A stretch of 64,000 nt of DNA. Origin: a bacterium. GTDB lineage: Bacteria > Sumerlaeota > Sumerlaeia > SLMS01 > JAHLLQ01. Both the position numbers and the translations under genes were made by a program. This document shows, one piece after another, positions 2,272-10,569 of this stretch. The stretch covers positions 1 to 64,000 of the forward strand of contig JAHLLQ010000004.1 of the NCBI GenBank assembly GCA_020444065.1, written 5' to 3'. The notes below the pieces were generated by a model. It was given only the letters and a program-made list of their open reading frames with translations, had not been told where the DNA came from and ran no database searches. Within the stretch, counting starts at the first letter, position 1. Each line of letters opens with the position of its first letter.

Positions 2272-2369
2272 CCGCACCCACTTGACCCGGCTCCACTTCG
2301 CCCTTGAGTCCTCGGGCTTTGCTTTCCTACTCTGGCGGGTCGCAGGCTCTGACCCACAGGAGATGGACC

Positions 2370-3866
2370 GTGAATTCGGAACAGATTCAATCGATCGTCG
2401 AAGAAGTCGTAGGACGGATGGTGAAGGGCGGCTCGTTGCCGCGCGCGAATGGATCCTCCGGCGGGGGAGCGGCCCCACGGCCGGCCTCGCCTCCATCGCC
2501 CATCTATCCGAAGTACAATCCGCCGACCGACAGTGGCCCGACGGGCGACTACGGCGTCTTTCCCGATATGGATGCCGCCATCGAGGCAGGCGAGCGCGCG
2601 TTCTATGCGCTGCGCGAGAAGTCCGTCGCCGATCGCGAAACGTACATCTCCGTGCTGCGCGAAGTGGGTCTGCGCGAAGCACGTCGCTGGGCCGAGATGA
2701 CCGTGGCCGAAACCGGCATGGGTCGTGTGCCGCACAAGATGATTAAGTTCGACGTGGTCTGCAAGAAGACGCCCGGCACCGAGGACCTGGCGCCGTGGGC
2801 GCGTACCGGCGACCGCGGCCTGGTGCTCGAAGAGCCCGCACCCTACGGGTTGATTGCCGCCGTCACGCCGAGCACACATCCCGTGCCGACATTGATTAAC
2901 AACGCGATCTCGATGATCGCGGGAGGTAACACGGCCGTCTTCAATCCGCATCCCGCCGGCAAGGCCGTTTTCGCCGATGCCGTGCGAACTCTGAATCGCG
3001 CGATGATGCAGGCTGGCGCTCCGCCGAACCTGATCGTCTGTATTGCCGAACCGACAATCGAATCCGCGGGCGTGATGTTTAACCATCCAAAGACTCGTAT
3101 CATCATGGTGACTGGCGGCCCCGGTGTCGTGAAAGCCGCTCTGGCCGTTCCCAAGAAATCGATCACCGCCGGACCGGGGAATCCCCCCGTCGTTGTGGAT
3201 GAAACGGCGGACATCGACAACGCCGCACATTGCATTACGGAGGGCGGCGGATTCGATAACAACGTCCTCTGCATTGGCGAGAAGGAAGTCTTCTGTGTCG
3301 AAAGCGTCTTTGAACAATTGCGCGAAGCGATGCGTCGCAAGGGCAACGTCGAACTGACGCGCCAGCAGATCGATCAGTTGGCGGAAAAGGCGTTCATTCG
3401 CAAAGGCGATTCGGTCATCACGAATCGCGATCTCGTCGGGAGAAACGCGCGTGTGCTTGCCGAAACGATCGGCATGACCGGCGTCGGCGACGATGTTCCG
3501 CTGCTCTTCGGCGAAGTCGAATTCGATCACCTTTGGGTGCAGGAAGAACAACTCATGCCCTTCATGCCACTCGTTCGTTGCAAGGACGTTTGGGAGGCCA
3601 TCGATATGGCCATCGAAGCCGAGCACGGCTATCGTCATACGGCATGCATGCACAGCCGGAACATCGAGAACATGTCGGTGATGGCGAAGCGATGCGATGC
3701 ATCGATCTTCGTCAAGAACGGTTCCAGCGCCCAGGGCCTGGCGGCCGGCGGCGAGGGCTACACCAGCTTCTCGATCGCCTCGCCGACGGGCGAGGGCCTG
3801 ACCAGCGCCCGCACCTTCACCCGCAAGCGCCGCTGTACCCTGGTGGACTCTTTCCGCATCGTGTAG
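2370..3866 (+). CDS. CoA-acylating aldehyde dehydrogenase, EutE/PduP type, with N-terminal encapsulation-like peptide
   Basis: 498 residues; oxidises an aldehyde to acyl-CoA with NAD+ in microcompartment pathways for ethanolamine, propanediol or fuco-/rhamnose. The start is GTG 2370, chosen because CAGGAG lies 7 nt upstream (2357-2362) and because residues 2-18 (NSEQIQSIVEEVVGRMV) form an amphipathic helix like known PduP/EutE encapsulation peptides. That helix is followed by a Gly/Ser/Pro linker (about 20-47). The catalytic Cys is Cys301 in 'NNVLCIGEKEV', an EutE-type context. The frame is open upstream to 2304. No shell-protein gene lies nearby, so the microcompartment role is inferred from the peptide. 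Confidence 0.88.
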   Translation: MNSEQIQSIVEEVVGRMVKGGSLPRANGSSGGGAAPRPASPPSPIYPKYNPPTDSGPTGDYGVFPDMDAAIEAGERAFYALREKSVADRETYISVLREVGLREARRWAEMTVAETGMGRVPHKMIKFDVVCKKTPGTEDLAPWARTGDRGLVLEEPAPYGLIAAVTPSTHPVPTLINNAISMIAGGNTAVFNPHPAGKAVFADAVRTLNRAMMQAGAPPNLIVCIAEPTIESAGVMFNHPKTRIIMVTGGPGVVKAALAVPKKSITAGPGNPPVVVDETADIDNAAHCITEGGGFDNNVLCIGEKEVFCVESVFEQLREAMRRKGNVELTRQQIDQLAEKAFIRKGDSVITNRDLVGRNARVLAETIGMTGVGDDVPLLFGEVEFDHLWVQEEQLMPFMPLVRCKDVWEAIDMAIEAEHGYRHTACMHSRNIENMSVMAKRCDASIFVKNGSSAQGLAAGGEGYTSFSIASPTGEGLTSARTFTRKRRCTLVDSFRIV

Positions 3867-3894: not shown

Positions 3895-3931
3895 AGGGGG
3901 CGAGCCAGACACTTGGTTTGCCCCCTTTTTC
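3895..3931 (+). terminator. Intrinsic terminator after aldehyde dehydrogenase gene
   Basis: Inverted repeat AGGGGGC (3895-3901) and GCCCCCT (3920-3926) followed by a T run (to 3930). It lies about 30 nt after the stop. Confidence 0.8.
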
Positions 3932-4046
3932 TATACACAACGCCAGTTTGTCCAGGTTTTGAATCGTCTAATTCGACAAAATCAGTCAAAGCGTTCATAT
4001 TTTCCTTGCCAAGCGGTCGGTCGCCATGCTCCACGTACGACCAGAC

Positions 4047-4081: not shown

Positions 4082-5026
4082 ATGGTGCTGACCCCAGACA
4101 ACATGATCTCAAGGCCTCAAGAGACTGAGAAAGTCCTGACAACCAGAAAGCTGGCCGATGCCCTTGGCATCAGCGAATCCTCAATCAAACGATGGGCGGA
4201 TGGTGGGAAGATCCGCGCTATTCGGACGCCGGGTGGCCATCGCCGGATTCCACTTACGGAAGCCGTTCGTTTCACCCGTGAAACAGATCTGGAGTTCGTG
4301 AATCCCGAACTGATCGGCCTGGCTCCGCGCCTGTCTTCCCCCCAGCGGGCGGATGCAGAGGAACTCTTCTACGCCGCCCTGGTCGAAGGGGCAGAGCAGG
4401 ACGCGAATGCGCTCCTGATTTCGCTCTTCCTCGAAGGCCGCTCAGTGGCGGAGCTGATCGACGGACCGGTCTCGGGGACGCTCGCCCGGATCGGCGAACT
4501 CTGGAAGCACAAGGGCGAAGGCATCTACATCGAACACCGCGCCACCGAGATCCTGCTGCGTATTCTGCGACGGATCTACGATCTGCTGCCGGTGCCGGCG
4601 GCGGATGCTCCGAAGGCTTTCGGTTGTGCCCCGGCCGGCGACGTATACCAGGTTCCGACCTTTGCCGTGGCGATGGTCTTTCGCGAGATGCGCTGGCAGG
4701 ACACAAACTTCGGCCCGGACGTTCCGTGGAAAGTTCTCGCCCTGGCGGTCGAGCAATTCAAACCGGGCGCCGTCTGGCTGGCCATCAGCGGTCGCGCTGA
4801 AGAGAACCTCGAGCTCGGGGATCCCGTGCGCGAGATGACGGATCTGGCAGATCGACTTGCCGGCTGGAACGGTGCGCTCTACTGCGGTGGACGCGGTCTG
4901 CCGGCAGGCCTCGATTCGACTTCGCACTCAAACATCTACCGACTCCACTCCATGACCCGCCTCGCTCAAACGGCCGGCGATCAATTCAGCAAACTCACAA
5001 AGGGAGGTGCCGACGATGAAGCGTAG
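4082..5026 (+). CDS. MerR-type regulator with CarH/LitR-like B12-binding domain lacking the cobalamin-ligand His
   Basis: 314 residues. An N-terminal MerR/excisionase-type winged helix (about 19-56, 'LTTRKLADALGIS..SIKRWADGGKI') is followed by the helical cap domain of CarH/LitR photoreceptor repressors. The cap keeps the W-x9-EH signature (Trp141, Glu151, His152) that contacts adenosylcobalamin in CarH. A Rossmann-like domain starts near 180. At the position of the E/D-x-H-x-x-G motif, the sequence reads Asp187-Val-Tyr189-Gln-Val-Pro, so the axial histidine is replaced by tyrosine and the Gly by Pro. An alternative ATG is at 4103. The gene overlaps the desaturase start by 11 nt and probably controls the operon it leads. 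Confidence 0.82.
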   Translation: MVLTPDNMISRPQETEKVLTTRKLADALGISESSIKRWADGGKIRAIRTPGGHRRIPLTEAVRFTRETDLEFVNPELIGLAPRLSSPQRADAEELFYAALVEGAEQDANALLISLFLEGRSVAELIDGPVSGTLARIGELWKHKGEGIYIEHRATEILLRILRRIYDLLPVPAADAPKAFGCAPAGDVYQVPTFAVAMVFREMRWQDTNFGPDVPWKVLALAVEQFKPGAVWLAISGRAEENLELGDPVREMTDLADRLAGWNGALYCGGRGLPAGLDSTSHSNIYRLHSMTRLAQTAGDQFSKLTKGGADDEA

Positions 5027-5969
5027 TCTTCTCGGGTGGCTTGATAATTCCGCATACCAAGGCGCGGCCGAAAGCGATTCCAGCGACCGCGTCGATTGGA
5101 TTCGTACCGCCCCATTCTGGGCGATGCACATCGCGTGTCTCGCCGTTCTCTGGGTGGGCTGGAGCCCCGTTGCCGTGGGCGTGGCGATCGCTTTGTACTT
5201 CGTTCGCATGTTCGCGATCACGGGTTTCTACCACCGCTACTTCTCGCACCGCACATTCAAGACATCGCGCTGGTTTCAGTTTGTGATGGCGGTTTGGGGA
5301 AACACGTCGTGCCAACGCGGTCCCCTCTGGTGGGCGGCCCACCATCGGCATCACCACCGACACTCCGATCAAGAGGACGACGTTCACTCTCCGCATCAGC
5401 ATGGCCTGCTGTGGAGCCACATGCTCTGGATCACGACTCCGCGCAACTTCGCGACGGACATGAAGCAGGTCAAGGATCTGACGAAGTACCCCGAGTTGCT
5501 CTGGCTGGATCGTTACGATTGGGTCGTCCCTGTCGTGTTTGCAGGCGCAATGTTCGGACTGGGCGCCGGGCTCAATGCCCTTGCGCCCGGCCTTGGAACA
5601 AGTGGGCTGCAGATGCTCGTGTGGGGGTTCTTTGTCTCCACGGTCGTGCTGTTCCACGGAACGTGTCTGATCAATTCACTCGCTCACATGATCGGAAAGA
5701 AGCGATTCGACACAGACGATCACAGCCGCAACAGCCTGTTGCTCGCGTTCATTACGTTGGGCGAAGGCTGGCACAACAACCATCACCATTATCCGGCAGC
5801 AACGCGCCAGGGCTTCTACTGGTGGGAGTTCGATCCGACCTATTACACGCTGAAGCTGCTGAGCTTTGCTGGTCTGATCTCCGAGCTGAAGCCTGTTCCG
5901 GAACGCATTCTGGAGGAAGGTCTTTCCGCGCGGAGACGCGTCGCCGCCGGTAGCGAGGTGCTGCAATGA
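5016..5969 (+). CDS. Membrane fatty-acid desaturase (acyl-CoA/acyl-lipid delta-9 type)
   Basis: 317 residues; a di-iron membrane desaturase that would insert a cis double bond into an acyl chain, supplying the alkene for the methyltransferase encoded downstream. Three histidine boxes are present: HRYFSH (73-78), HRHHHRH (about 113-119) and HNNHHH (about 252-257). Four or more hydrophobic segments surround them. The start is ATG 5016 with GGGAGG at 5002-5007; an in-frame GTG at 5007 is less likely. Second gene of the lipid operon, 11-nt overlap with the regulator. Confidence 0.92.
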   Translation: MKRSLLGWLDNSAYQGAAESDSSDRVDWIRTAPFWAMHIACLAVLWVGWSPVAVGVAIALYFVRMFAITGFYHRYFSHRTFKTSRWFQFVMAVWGNTSCQRGPLWWAAHHRHHHRHSDQEDDVHSPHQHGLLWSHMLWITTPRNFATDMKQVKDLTKYPELLWLDRYDWVVPVVFAGAMFGLGAGLNALAPGLGTSGLQMLVWGFFVSTVVLFHGTCLINSLAHMIGKKRFDTDDHSRNSLLLAFITLGEGWHNNHHHYPAATRQGFYWWEFDPTYYTLKLLSFAGLISELKPVPERILEEGLSARRRVAAGSEVLQ

Positions 5970-6733
5970 GCAAGCGATACTTCATGGGACGACGCATCTG
6001 GATCACCGGTGCGTCTACCGGAATCGGTGCAGCCTGCGCAAAGGAGTTTGCTCGCCGCGGCGCATACGTTGCCCTCTCTGCACGCAGCGAAGAGAAACTC
6101 TCGAAACTTGCAAAAGCACTGGGGCCCAGGGCTTTTGCCGCACCGTGCGATGTGACGGACAAAGAATCGCTCAAGGAAGTGGTAGCCCGGATTACCAACA
6201 AGATGGGTGGCATCGATACGGCCTTCTTGAATGCGGGAACATGGCAGGACATGGATCTGGATCAGTTCGATTCCGCTCTCTTCGAGCACATCATGACCGT
6301 GAATTACCTTGGTCTCGTCCACGGAATCGAAGCCGTCCTGCCGGAACTGATGCGCAGCAAGAGTGGCCATCTTGTCGGAATGAGTAGCTCGGTGGCCTAT
6401 CGCGGCATGCCGCGCGCGGAAGCATACTGCGCATCGAAGTCTGCGGTGCGCGCGATGCTGCAGGGACTTCGGTGCCAACTGAAGCCGCACGACATCCCGA
6501 CGACCATTGTGATGCCGGGATTCGTCAAGTCGCCCCTCACCGACCGAAATGACTTCGCGATGCCCTTCCTGATGGAGACCAGCGATGCCGCTCGAATCAT
6601 TGCCGATGGCATCGCGAAGCGGCGCAGCGAAATCAAGTTTCCGTGGCAGTTTATCCTGATGATGAAGCTGATGGCGCACTTGCCGGATTCTACCTATACG
6701 GCGTTGATGACCAGAATGGCGGTAAGCAAATGA
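5966..6733 (+). CDS. Short-chain dehydrogenase/reductase
   Basis: 255 residues; classical SDR with NAD(P)-binding TGASTGIG (about 12-19), 'LNAG' around residue 90 and the catalytic Y-C-A-S-K pair. A hydrophobic C-terminal stretch (about 225-240) could associate with the membrane. The ATG overlaps the desaturase stop (ATGA). SDRs accompany the FAD oxidase/DUF1365/Cfa-like set in many proteobacteria. The likely substrate is a modified acyl chain, but this is inference. Confidence 0.88.
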   Translation: MSKRYFMGRRIWITGASTGIGAACAKEFARRGAYVALSARSEEKLSKLAKALGPRAFAAPCDVTDKESLKEVVARITNKMGGIDTAFLNAGTWQDMDLDQFDSALFEHIMTVNYLGLVHGIEAVLPELMRSKSGHLVGMSSSVAYRGMPRAEAYCASKSAVRAMLQGLRCQLKPHDIPTTIVMPGFVKSPLTDRNDFAMPFLMETSDAARIIADGIAKRRSEIKFPWQFILMMKLMAHLPDSTYTALMTRMAVSK

Positions 6734-7977
6734 GAATCGCAATCGTCGGATCAGGAATTTCCGGACTCGTCTGTGCGCATTTGCTGCATGGCGAACATGA
6801 CCTCACGATCTTCGAAGCGAACGGTTACATCGGTGGTCATACTAACACCGTAGATGTAGACGCCGAAGATGGGCAGCACGCTGTCGATACGGGCTTTATT
6901 GTCTTCAACGATTGGACCTACCCGAATTTCATCAAGCTGATCGATCAACTCGGCGTTGAGTCCCAGACAAGCGATATGAGCTTCAGCGTGCGCAACGAGA
7001 TGAACGGCCTGGAGTACAATGGAACCAATCTGAACGGCTTGTTCTCCCAGCGCATGAATGCCCTGCGTCCTTCTTTCCACCGGATGATCTTCGACATCCT
7101 CCGTTTCAACAAGGAGGCGACCAGGCTTGCCAGCAATGGCGTGGGTAAGGAGGCAATGACGCTTGGGGAATTCGTTGCGCATGAGAACTTCTCGCCCGAA
7201 TTCCTGGAGCACTATCTGATTCCGATTGGCTCATCGATCTGGTCTGCCAATCCGCAACACTTCGATCAGATGCCGGCGAAGTACCTTGCTGGATTCCTTC
7301 GAAACCACGGGATGCTCTCGGTCAACGATCGCCCGAAGTGGCGTGTTATCAAGGGCGGTTCCTCGCGCTACGTGGACAAAATCATTCGGCCTTTTGAGGA
7401 TCGAATTCGCCTGAAAACCCCCGTGCAGAAAATCCGACGCGCAGAGGATGGCGTCTGGATTTCGAGTGCAAGAGGTGAGGAGCGATTCGATCGAGTGATC
7501 ATTGCCGCCCACAGCGACCAGGCTCTTCGGATGCTCGAAGACCCCACCGATGCAGAGCGCGAAGTCCTTGGTGCAATCCCATACCAGCCGAATCGGACTG
7601 TGTTGCACACGGATGCGCGCATGATGCCGAAACTGCGGCGATCTTGGGCAGCCTGGAACTATCACGTAACTTCGCCGGAACGAAAGACGGCGGCGATTAC
7701 TTACAACATGAACATTCTCCAGAGTTTGCGCACAGAGCAGACGTACTGCGTGACACTGAACCGCGAAAACGAAATCGATCCAACTCGGAGGCTTCGAGCT
7801 TTCGACTACGATCACCCGATCTACACGCCCGCAGGCACTCGAGCGCAGCAGCGTTGGGAAGAAGTTAATGGCGTACGCGATACGTTCTTCTGCGGCGCTT
7901 ACTGGGGCTACGGATTCCACGAAGACGGGGTGAAGAGCGCTCTGCGCGTCTGTCACGCCTTCGGGAAGGAACTGTGA
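6730..7977 (+). CDS. FAD-dependent amine-oxidase-like oxidoreductase
   Basis: 415 residues starting at ATG 6730 (ATGA overlap with the SDR gene). The N-terminus 'IAIVGSGISGLVCAHLL' is an ADP-binding beta-alpha-beta with GxGxxG. The 'GGHTNTV' that follows is typical of the NAD/FAD-binding protein family found beside DUF1365 and cyclopropane synthase-like genes. The C-terminal 'FCGAYWGYGFHEDG' is the family's FAD/active-site end. In proteobacterial loci of this kind a homologue takes part in oxidising methylated fatty acids on the way to furan fatty acids. Extending that role here is inference. Confidence 0.9.
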   Translation: MRIAIVGSGISGLVCAHLLHGEHDLTIFEANGYIGGHTNTVDVDAEDGQHAVDTGFIVFNDWTYPNFIKLIDQLGVESQTSDMSFSVRNEMNGLEYNGTNLNGLFSQRMNALRPSFHRMIFDILRFNKEATRLASNGVGKEAMTLGEFVAHENFSPEFLEHYLIPIGSSIWSANPQHFDQMPAKYLAGFLRNHGMLSVNDRPKWRVIKGGSSRYVDKIIRPFEDRIRLKTPVQKIRRAEDGVWISSARGEERFDRVIIAAHSDQALRMLEDPTDAEREVLGAIPYQPNRTVLHTDARMMPKLRRSWAAWNYHVTSPERKTAAITYNMNILQSLRTEQTYCVTLNRENEIDPTRRLRAFDYDHPIYTPAGTRAQQRWEEVNGVRDTFFCGAYWGYGFHEDGVKSALRVCHAFGKEL

Positions 7978-8753
7978 TGCATAGCGCGATCTTCGAAGGC
8001 TGGGTGCGCCACCGACGGTTCGAACCTGTCGAGCACGCCTTCCGGTACAAGATGTTCATGATGTACCTGGATCTTGCAGAGCTCCCGCAGCTCTTCGACG
8101 GGATGCGGCTGTGGTCTGCCCGCAGGGCTGCCCTTGCGCGCTTTTCTCGCGCGGATCACGTCGGCGATCCAAACGAACCCCTGGATCAGACCATTCGTGA
8201 CCTTGTCGAGGAGAGTGGCGCGCCACGCCCTCGGGGTCCGATCCGTTTGCTGACGCATCTGCGATACTTCGGCTACATCTTCAATCCGGCTTCTTTCTAT
8301 TACTGTTTCGACGAGAGCGGTGAAAACGTCGACGCGATTGTCACCGAGATCACGAATACCCCATGGGGGGAGCGTCACTGTTACGTTCACCCCAGGGGCG
8401 ACAATGAGGGAACGGAGAAGCGCAAGGTCTTCCGTTTCGACAAGGACTTCCACGTCTCTCCCTTCATGGAGATGGAACACCGGTATGAATGGCGATTCAT
8501 GGATCCGGCGAAGAACATCCTGATTCACATGGAAAACCACAAGGGAGATCGAACGATCTTCGACGCCACAATGAACCTGGAGCGCCATGAAATTACGCCA
8601 GGCGCTCTGAACCTTCGACTGATCAAGTACCCCTTCATGACGATGCAGGTTATTGCAGGCATTTACTGGAATGCCCTGCGGCTGCGCATGAAGGGCGCCA
8701 CATTCCACACGCATCCCAAGAAAAGAACTCAACTTTCGGAGTCCAGATCATGA
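7974..8753 (+). CDS. DUF1365 family protein
   Basis: 259 residues with the DUF1365 hallmark beginning, a short basic segment 'VRHRRFEPVEHAFRYKMFM' (about 10-28), and internal 'YIFNPASFYYCFD'. The biochemical function of the family is not established. It is almost always next to the FAD oxidase and the Cfa-like methyltransferase, as here (ATGA overlaps on both sides), suggesting an auxiliary part in acyl-chain modification. Confidence 0.9.
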   Translation: MMHSAIFEGWVRHRRFEPVEHAFRYKMFMMYLDLAELPQLFDGMRLWSARRAALARFSRADHVGDPNEPLDQTIRDLVEESGAPRPRGPIRLLTHLRYFGYIFNPASFYYCFDESGENVDAIVTEITNTPWGERHCYVHPRGDNEGTEKRKVFRFDKDFHVSPFMEMEHRYEWRFMDPAKNILIHMENHKGDRTIFDATMNLERHEITPGALNLRLIKYPFMTMQVIAGIYWNALRLRMKGATFHTHPKKRTQLSESRS

Positions 8754-10021
8754 GTGAAAGCATTATCCCCAATCTTACCAAGACACGTTTGAGTGCGCGA
8801 CTTCCTTTCCTGCAGAAGATCGCTCGCCAGAAAATCCTCGCGACGCTTGCGAAGATCACCGAAGGGCAACTAACAGTCGAAGACGAATTCGGGACCGATA
8901 CATTTGGTCAGCCCGGAGGCTTGCAGGCCACCCTTCGCGTTCACGATACGCGATTCTATTCCATGTCCGCTTACGAGGGAAGTGTCGGCGCGGGTGAAGC
9001 CTACATGAGGCGCTACTGGTCGGCCGACGACTTGACGACTCTCGTGCGTCTGTTCGTTCGGAATCGCGAAGTCCTTGAATCGGTCGATGGCGGTGCATCG
9101 AGAATCGGGAAGTCGATCCTCGGTTTCTTCCACAAACTGCGCCAGAACTCGATCGAAGGAAGTCGCCGCAACATCGAGGCGCATTACGATCTTGGCAACG
9201 AGTTCTACGAACTCTTCCTCGACAAGACGATGACCTATTCGTCCGGCTTCTTCGAATCGGAAGAGGCGACGCTGGAAGAAGCCTCCATCGCGAAGATCGA
9301 TCGGCTATGCCAAAAGCTCGACCTGCAGCCGACCGATCACGTTCTCGAAATCGGAACCGGCTGGGGCAGCTTTGCAATCCACGCCGCGCGCGAATACGGA
9401 TGCCGGGTTACAACGACCACGATCTCGCAGGAGCAATTCAACTACGCCGTCAACGCAGTCCGCGAGGCAGGTCTGCAGGATCGGGTCGAGATTCTCTTCA
9501 AAGACTACCGTCGCCTCGAGGGGCAGTACGACAAGATCTGCTCCATCGAGATGATTGAAGCTGTCGGTTGGCAGTACTACGAGACCTTCATGGAACAATG
9601 CTGCAAGCTCCTGAAGCCCGATGGGCTTTGCGCCATGCAGGCAATCACGATTCGTGACGATGTGTATGAAAGTGCGCGTCGATCCGTGGACTTTATCCAG
9701 CGCTACGTCTTCCCTGGCAGTTGCATTCCGTCGACGACGGCCTTGCTGCAGGCGGCAACAAACGTCGGAGACATGAAGATGGTTCACTTCGAGGATTTCG
9801 CACCGCACTACGCGCGAACGTTGCGCATGTGGCGCGAGCGTTTCTTCCAGCGCCTCGGCGAGGTCCGCGGACTTGGCTTCAGCGAGGAGTTCATCCGCCT
9901 GTGGGACTACTACCTCTGCTACTGCGAAGGTGGTTTCCTGGAGCGCAACATCGCGGTGACCCAGATGACATTCGCCCGGCCGGCGAATCGTCGCGATCCA
10001 ATCCTGGCGGAGATCAGATGA
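8750..10021 (+). CDS. Cyclopropane-fatty-acyl-phospholipid synthase family methyltransferase
   Basis: 423 residues; SAM-dependent methylation of phospholipid double bonds. An N-terminal lipid-binding region (1-135) is followed by a Rossmann domain with motif I 'VLEIGTGWGSFA' (about 200-211), 'SIEMIEAVG' in place of the E. coli 'EHVG', and 'FPGSCIPS' with the conserved Cys. The EAVG form is common in Cfa paralogues grouped with FAD oxidase and DUF1365, some of which make methylated rather than cyclopropane products. The product is therefore uncertain. ATGA overlaps at both ends. Confidence 0.93.
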   Translation: MSESIIPNLTKTRLSARLPFLQKIARQKILATLAKITEGQLTVEDEFGTDTFGQPGGLQATLRVHDTRFYSMSAYEGSVGAGEAYMRRYWSADDLTTLVRLFVRNREVLESVDGGASRIGKSILGFFHKLRQNSIEGSRRNIEAHYDLGNEFYELFLDKTMTYSSGFFESEEATLEEASIAKIDRLCQKLDLQPTDHVLEIGTGWGSFAIHAAREYGCRVTTTTISQEQFNYAVNAVREAGLQDRVEILFKDYRRLEGQYDKICSIEMIEAVGWQYYETFMEQCCKLLKPDGLCAMQAITIRDDVYESARRSVDFIQRYVFPGSCIPSTTALLQAATNVGDMKMVHFEDFAPHYARTLRMWRERFFQRLGEVRGLGFSEEFIRLWDYYLCYCEGGFLERNIAVTQMTFARPANRRDPILAEIR

Positions 10022-10569
10022 AGAACGCACTGAACTTCCTGCTCTTTCAGGCGGCCTGGTGGCCGAGCGTTCTCGGGGCGGCGGCAGGGCATTATTGGAT
10101 TGGCCTGCCGCTCGTCCTTCTCTGTGCCGTCGTTCGTATTGCTCAGGCGAGCGACCCGCGAGGAGAGACGCGTCTGCTGCTGGCCATCACGGGGGGAGGG
10201 ATCATTTTGGATTCGGCACTGGCGCTTGCGGGTGTCTTCGAGCCGCGTGGTGCCCTCGGGCCGGCGTGGATCTGTCCGCCGTGGTTGGCAGGTTTGTGGT
10301 TGGCCTTCGCAACGACACTGCGCGGCTCACTCGGTTGGCTGAGAGGGCGCCCGATCCTGGCCGCTGTCCTTGGCGCTCCGGGCGGCGCGTTCTCCTACCT
10401 GGCGGGCGCCCGCCTCGGGGCCCTGGACTTCCCGGAGACCGTTTGGCCGTCACTCGCTGTTCTCTTCGTCGTTTGGGCGGTGGTCTTTCCGCTGACGATG
10501 ATGGTCAGCGAGCGCTGCGAGGCGTGCAATCGGGGCGAAGAATGCGAACTTCAGTCGCTCGAATCATGA
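10018..10569 (+). CDS. Polytopic membrane protein, DUF2878-like
   Basis: 183 residues, with about five hydrophobic segments and Gly/Trp-rich loops, resembling DUF2878 proteins that close the Cfa/DUF1365 operons. It starts at ATG 10018 inside the stop of the Cfa-like gene. The last ~20 residues hold three cysteines (ERCEACNRGEEC), an extension that could bind a metal and that I do not recall as typical of the family. Last gene of the operon before a terminator. Confidence 0.72.
   Translation: MKNALNFLLFQAAWWPSVLGAAAGHYWIGLPLVLLCAVVRIAQASDPRGETRLLLAITGGGIILDSALALAGVFEPRGALGPAWICPPWLAGLWLAFATTLRGSLGWLRGRPILAAVLGAPGGAFSYLAGARLGALDFPETVWPSLAVLFVVWAVVFPLTMMVSERCEACNRGEECELQSLES

Follow-up and report, generated by a model that had tools for sequence, protein, structure and literature searches.

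In Rhodobacter (Cereibacter) sphaeroides, furan fatty acids are formed on phospholipids by three proteins: the S-adenosylmethionine (SAM) methyltransferase UfaM, the flavin adenine dinucleotide (FAD)-type desaturase UfaD (RSP1091), and the DUF1365 protein UfaO (RSP1090). Their UniProt accessions are Q3J4I7 (UfaM), Q3IYV7 (UfaD) and Q3IYV8 (UfaO) (PMC10940516). Phospholipid-bound cis-vaccenate is first turned into a methylated alkene; a methylated diene follows, from which O2-dependent conversion yields a monomethyl furan fatty acid, while a second methylation is the job of FufM (PMC7380195). Formation of the monomethyl furan acid requires UfaM, UfaD and UfaO, and these three suffice for it, as established in two Alphaproteobacteria; the remaining three genes of the R. 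sphaeroides operon are dispensable for it, and no protein of the short-chain dehydrogenase/reductase (SDR) type is required (PMC7380195). The UfaD, UfaO and UfaM genes are consecutive in Rhodopseudomonas palustris (PMC7380195), and a UfaM-type enzyme from Halomonas made the methylated alkene in Escherichia coli (PMC12089945). Here, we analyse a seven-gene operon that probably encodes a self-contained furan-fatty-acid pathway with its own desaturase. It lies at positions 4082–10569 of the first 64,000 nucleotides (nt) of contig JAHLLQ010000004.1 (GenBank assembly GCA_020444065.1; Sumerlaeota, class Sumerlaeia), a stretch hereafter referred to as the window.

The core of the operon consists of three neighbouring + strand genes, coding for an amine-oxidase/phytoene-desaturase-like FAD protein of the UfaD type (6730–7977; PF01593, with a GSGISG motif), a DUF1365 protein of the UfaO family (from 7974 with a GTG start or 7977 with an ATG start to 8753; PF07103, E 5e-84), and a UfaM-like SAM methyltransferase of the CMAS family (8750–10021; PF02353, E 8e-85), which carries EAVG and Gln296. 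All three Ufa families are present, adjacent, and arranged as UfaD-UfaO-UfaM of R. palustris. An earlier note on this DNA had proposed a lipid-modification operon of the light- or singlet-oxygen-related kind, for which a furan product was credible, and the match of the FAD, DUF1365 and Cfa genes to UfaD, UfaO and UfaM by family and order bears this out. Judged from gene content, the likeliest product is a monomethyl furan fatty acid; a monomethyl rather than a dimethyl product is predicted because the operon has no FufM gene. Elsewhere in the host, two weak CMAS-like places fail the FufM profile, with which no whole-genome search was made.

The trio is embedded in one uninterrupted + strand run of seven open frames, none with internal stops. 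Upstream lie the genes for a regulator combining an HTH_17 domain with a CarH-like cobalamin-type fold (4082–5026), a membrane fatty acid desaturase (5016–5969) and an SDR (5966–6733; PF00106, with TGASTGIG and YCASK motifs), and downstream that for a DUF2878 membrane protein (10018–10569; PF11086, E 8e-42). The curated cut-offs of Pfam are exceeded by all seven proteins (HTH_17 plus B12-binding_2, FA_desaturase, adh_short, Amino_oxidase, DUF1365, CMAS, and DUF2878). Adjacent genes overlap at every junction, by 11 nt between regulator and desaturase and by 4 nt at each of the five that follow; seven coupled same-strand genes, as previously described, are thereby confirmed. One detail has to be corrected: the sequence at 7974 is GTGA instead of the ATGA given before, and is part of a GTGATG stretch at which the FAD and DUF1365 genes overlap by 4 nt with the GTG start and by 1 nt with the ATG start.

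For its three chemical steps and for its role in protection, the proposed route is modelled on the named homologues and on the work in R. sphaeroides. Promoter activity would be controlled by the CarH-fold regulator encoded by the first gene, in response to a signal that may be linked to light or oxidants, as the gene neighbours of its family suggest. A single coupled transcript would supply the desaturase, the methyltransferase, the flavoprotein and the DUF1365 protein. The desaturase would introduce a cis double bond into the acyl chain, onto which the UfaM-type methyltransferase would place a SAM-derived methyl group; the UfaD-type flavoprotein would oxidise the methylated product to a methylated diene, and the UfaO-type DUF1365 protein would close the furan ring using O2. 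The resulting monomethyl furan phospholipid would scavenge or quench singlet oxygen in the membrane. The SDR and the DUF2878 protein are presumed accessory; an SDR in the same position in several Gammaproteobacteria suggests that this accessory role is a real one.

Searching for the gene order in other genomes, as advised in the earlier note, recovered all seven genes in identical order at locus L107 of G002, the closest genome sharing the operon, which belongs to the same family as the window genome and to a different genus. Four of its six junctions overlap by 4 nt, with gaps between regulator and desaturase (9 nt) and between desaturase and SDR (about 100 nt); coupling among the regulator, desaturase and SDR genes is therefore not conserved. 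Given seven curated families and the same seven-gene order in G002, the gene set is far beyond chance. The cluster is split in two related genomes, G005 (L135 and L112) and G006 (L136 and L120), with SDR-FAD-Cfa and desaturase-DUF1365-DUF2878 on separate contigs. Within the window's class, DUF1365 occurs in 11 of 39 genomes.

Among 80 loci retrieved by similarity to the window's methyltransferase, UfaD, UfaO and UfaM are found on one strand in 76, the FAD gene being adjacent to the DUF1365 and Cfa genes. In various phyla, genes for photolyase, LitR/MerR regulators, sigma-E/ChrR and a FufM-like methyltransferase are frequent neighbours of the trio, and DUF1295 and SnoaL-like proteins (names assigned from representative sequences) are often encoded close by as well. 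An SDR gene likewise directly precedes UfaD in G002, G005, G006, Gilvimarinus, Microbulbifer, Aestuariicella, Aliikangiella, Psychrosphaera, and Photobacterium. Many other clusters have a DUF2878 gene immediately 3' of UfaM; the neighbour group labelled "lipocalin" was not relied on for them, since it is mixed and includes DUF2878 proteins. One furan-type cluster (L037; UfaD, two DUF1365, UfaM, FufM-like, DUF1295) stands in a record titled Candidatus Kuenenia stuttgartiensis, an anaerobic anammox organism; despite the O2 requirement of UfaO, it is filed with this genome, possibly through misbinning of the contig.

The desaturase of the operon (PF00487, E 4e-19) has all three His boxes intact (HRYFSH, HHRHHH, HNNHHH) and is 53–71% identical to the same-position desaturases of most other desaturase-bearing clusters. 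It is a natural source of the alkene because FabA was not detected in the host genome; as the double-bond source it is plausible, though not the sole candidate, since the host has a second desaturase. The earlier note had regarded the built-in desaturase as a distinguishing feature. However, such a gene is common in these clusters and not special to the window locus: it lies ahead of UfaD, at a distance of at most 1.5 kb, in 26 of the 76 UfaD-UfaO-UfaM clusters, spread over many phyla (within about 160 nt in 22 of those), stands beside the DUF1365 or Cfa gene in nine of the 11 DUF1365-bearing genomes of the window's class, and is also part of a published Stenotrophomonas operon. Record titles of the desaturase-bearing clusters name Gammaproteobacteria, Nitrospinaceae, Planctomycetota, Acidobacteriales, Spartobacteria, Rubritalea, and others.

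Several points weigh against a furan product. The Ufa assignment was made by family and synteny; the known UfaM substrate is cis-vaccenate, and the window desaturase may place its double bond at another position; the genome has a second, unrelated desaturase (26% identity over 87 residues); and the operon has no light or oxidant gene among its neighbours. Furthermore, the methyltransferase shares its active-site set with cotton GhCPS1, a cyclopropane synthase. The bicarbonate ligands of E. coli Cfa are Glu239, His266 and Tyr317 (PMC11387697), a classical set that the window protein does not reproduce: Glu and Tyr are retained, His266 is replaced by Gln (Gln296), Cys139 by Ser, and the Glu is followed by Ala. 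The EAVG motif had been taken to point to an unusual product. Yet Glu, Ala, Gln, Ile and Tyr occupy the positions of E239, H240, H266, I268 and Y317 in all 95 cluster methyltransferases (the window's and 94 others), while FufM-like methyltransferases retain His at 240 and 266, so that EAVG is a mark of the whole UfaM-like clade and not an oddity. Moreover, the five bicarbonate-site residues of GhCPS1 (Ser, Glu, Gln, Ile, Tyr) are identical in the window protein. Since GhCPS1 makes cyclopropane (PMC3132707), EAVG and the bicarbonate-site residues do not decide the product; equally, Gln at the His266 position does not exclude a cyclopropane function, because plant cyclopropane synthases also carry it. 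What favours the furan reading is hence the presence of UfaD and UfaO next to the methyltransferase, and not the site residues of that enzyme.

It is accordingly conceivable, albeit improbable, that the enzyme is a plant-type cyclopropane synthase acting on the product of the desaturase, with the FAD and DUF1365 proteins modifying the ring or aiding the synthase. GhCPS1, beyond its shared site residues, also has an N-terminal FAD-oxidase domain (PMC3132707), which fits this idea. However, the DUF1365 (UfaO) gene consistently sits between the FAD and Cfa genes, the UfaM/UfaD/UfaO set suffices for furan in two Alphaproteobacteria (PMC7380195), and Agrobacterium homologues of the plant pair yielded no cyclopropane in yeast (PMC3132707). 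Less probable still is a pathway that ends before the furan, at a methyl-branched mono- or diene or, with involvement of the SDR, at a reduced methyl-branched acid. The SDR is foreign to the minimal furan pathway and is predicted from gene layout to be co-transcribed both in the window and in several further clusters, which would suit such a product, but DUF1365/UfaO is present and intact, and no reductase of the 10-methyl-acid kind was recognised. The monomethyl furan fatty acid thus remains the best reading.

The less expected part of the locus is its regulator, which belongs to a His-to-Tyr family with a CarH fold. CarH proteins are defined by the motifs Wx9EH and E/DxHx2G (PMC8156234), and a broader light-sensor signature of cobalamin domains comprises GxxW, EH, GxxH and GxxxP (PMC11796333). 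An AlphaFold model of the window regulator (mean predicted local distance difference test score 84; predicted template modelling score 0.83) retains the Rossmann B12 fold, of which Pfam detects only the cap (B12-binding_2). Its best matches in the PDB are Thermus thermophilus CarH (TtCarH; 5c8d, E 1.4e-13) and, for the B12 domain, Chloracidobacterium thermophilum MerR (8jbs), whose helix-turn-helix (HTH) domain is also resembled by that of the regulator. The adenosyl-cap motif Wx9EH is present (W141, E151, H152), but at the place of E/DxHx2G the protein reads DVYQVP (within GDVYQVP), with Tyr189 for the cobalt-ligating His and Pro for Gly. Tyr189 is equivalent to His177 of TtCarH, which coordinates cobalt (PMC10442372). 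Three of the four light-sensor elements are found (GELW, EH, GPDVP), whereas GxxH is GDVY. The label "HTH-B12-type regulator" given before therefore stands for the fold, and fails for the B12-ligating His. Tyr is invariant in a seven-sequence alignment of window-type regulators.

A search profile built from seven Tyr-type regulators, six of which had been picked up via adjoining lipid clusters, matched proteins of the window's class and, above all, of Planctomycetota. Outside the profile, the 63 strong relatives have Tyr (52), His (3) or another residue (8) at the cobalt-ligand position; many genomes with Tyr-type relatives are related to one another, so these and the following counts do not represent independent events. 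Including the seeds, the Tyr-type set numbers 59 proteins (window 4082–5026, L107, L132, L160–L165, L203–L261). The cap Glu, GxxxP and GG are conserved in all of them and the Trp in 56; the position of the cap His holds His in 34 and Arg in 24. Among the 52 non-seed members, UfaD/UfaM cluster genes occur within the retrieved stretch for 19, and a photolyase lies within 0.7 kb for eight (27/52). In G004, a genome of the window's family in which DUF1365 was not detected at 80% completeness, a Tyr-type regulator (L132, G004:C106, 427–1308) stands with no lipid cluster next to it. The only photolyase-family gene found in the host of the window lies on another contig (G000:C1:80011–81423; L264 6011–7423), with no regulator of the Tyr-type family beside it.

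Since the cobalt-ligating His is often retained by the LitR proteins of MerR type that accompany other furan clusters, the His-to-Tyr swap belongs to this regulator lineage and not to furan clusters generally. A bolder reading, less likely than not, would see the Tyr-type proteins as an undescribed CarH-fold family, common among Planctomycetota and found also in the window's class, which exchanged the cobalt-ligating His for Tyr but retained most of the adenosyl-cap signature, and which may control furan-lipid and photolyase genes by a new mode of light, singlet-oxygen or redox sensing. Candidate modes would be the use of adenosylcobalamin (AdoB12) without a His ligand or with Tyr as ligand, binding of another tetrapyrrole such as heme, or operation with no cofactor. 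No description of the family was found in the part of the literature that is searchable. It is rather unlikely that the regulator is an ordinary AdoB12 light sensor in which cap motif and fold hold the cofactor despite the Tyr. The CarH-like fold, the intact GxxW, EH and GxxxP motifs, and an HTH resembling the one in C. thermophilum MerR, whose function as an AdoB12 light sensor has been confirmed by experiment, speak in favour of this; however, the window protein has Tyr for the cobalt His and Pro for Gly, Tyr is common to all 59 proteins, 24 of them have Arg for the cap His, and class II LitR proteins function without B12 (PMC9758184).

Upstream, the operon is isolated from an aldehyde dehydrogenase gene by the terminator of that gene (3895–3926, + strand), which has a 14-pair stem (8 G-C), a loop of 4 and a T-run. 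The scanned region holds five further terminator-like sites, each of 5–7 pairs and all intragenic, the total being at chance level (6 found, 6.2 expected). A single sigma-70-like site at 3973–4001 is the only promoter candidate and represents no excess over chance (1 found, 1.9 expected). The sequence CTTGCCAAG, considered as a family-wide operator, precedes the regulator gene in both the window and G002; it is absent from every other relative checked and was dropped. The aldehyde dehydrogenase itself (2367–3866, family by Pfam) directly precedes the operon, and its N-terminal residues resemble, by eye only, a microcompartment-targeting helix.

The enzyme set, desaturase included, is widespread, and both features offered as novel are ordinary for such clusters. 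What the locus adds is the extension of an already known pathway of membrane protection to a lineage that has been little studied, in the form of a compact, clonable unit that brings its own desaturase. Whether four genes are enough for furan lipids in an aerobic host can conveniently be tested with it. The regulators, on their part, comprise 59 proteins that share one substitution at the cobalt-holding residue of the characterised CarH, and about half of the non-seed ones adjoin photo-oxidative-stress genes. This family poses a clear and cheap biochemical question, namely how light sensors of the B12 type can be rewired.

Compared with described systems, the operon is closest in its core to the Ufa genes of R. 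sphaeroides and R. palustris, with which it shares the CMAS, FAD and DUF1365 proteins and, for R. palustris, the FAD-DUF1365-Cfa order. In contrast to the window, whose single operon also couples the genes for regulator, desaturase, SDR and DUF2878, the Ufa systems draw their alkene, cis-vaccenate, from general metabolism, ufaM of R. sphaeroides lies elsewhere in the genome, and R. palustris also has FufM (PMC7380195). A desaturase-bearing counterpart is smlt2375-smlt2367 of Stenotrophomonas maltophilia, with consecutive genes for an acyl-CoA desaturase, an FAD oxidoreductase, a hypothetical protein at the DUF1365 position and a Cfa-type synthase, followed by two hypothetical inner-membrane proteins. 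This unit is strongly up-regulated in a chrR mutant in a sigma-Ec-dependent manner, which contributes to menadione tolerance; unlike the window operon, it includes a lipocalin gene and a further Cfa-type gene, lacks an SDR, and is under the control of the sigma/anti-sigma pair sigma-Ec/ChrR (PMC11832516). Plant GhCPS and AtUFAMD1/AtUFAO1 likewise pair an FAD oxidase with a CMAS enzyme and have a DUF1365 partner, but FAD and CMAS parts are fused in plants, and GhCPS1 and 2 produce cyclopropane (PMC3132707, PMC10940516).

The regulator, in turn, has the HTH, four-helix cap and Rossmann B12 fold of T. thermophilus CarH and C. thermophilum MerR and shares GxxW, EH (Wx9EH) and GxxxP with these AdoB12 sensors (PMC8156234, PMC11796333), but differs from both by GxxY for GxxH and, thus, by the lack of the cobalt-ligating His. 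With the class II LitR proteins of Pseudomonas (PplR/PmlR), which control light-inducible genes including ufaM, it has in common that Pfam sees only the B12-binding_2 cap (PMC9758184). Those proteins, however, bear an HTH of the MerR type, retain only the four-helix cap, and show just 19% similarity to the B12 domain in their C-terminus (PMC9758184), whereas the window regulator combines HTH_17 with a B12 fold that is clearly kept.

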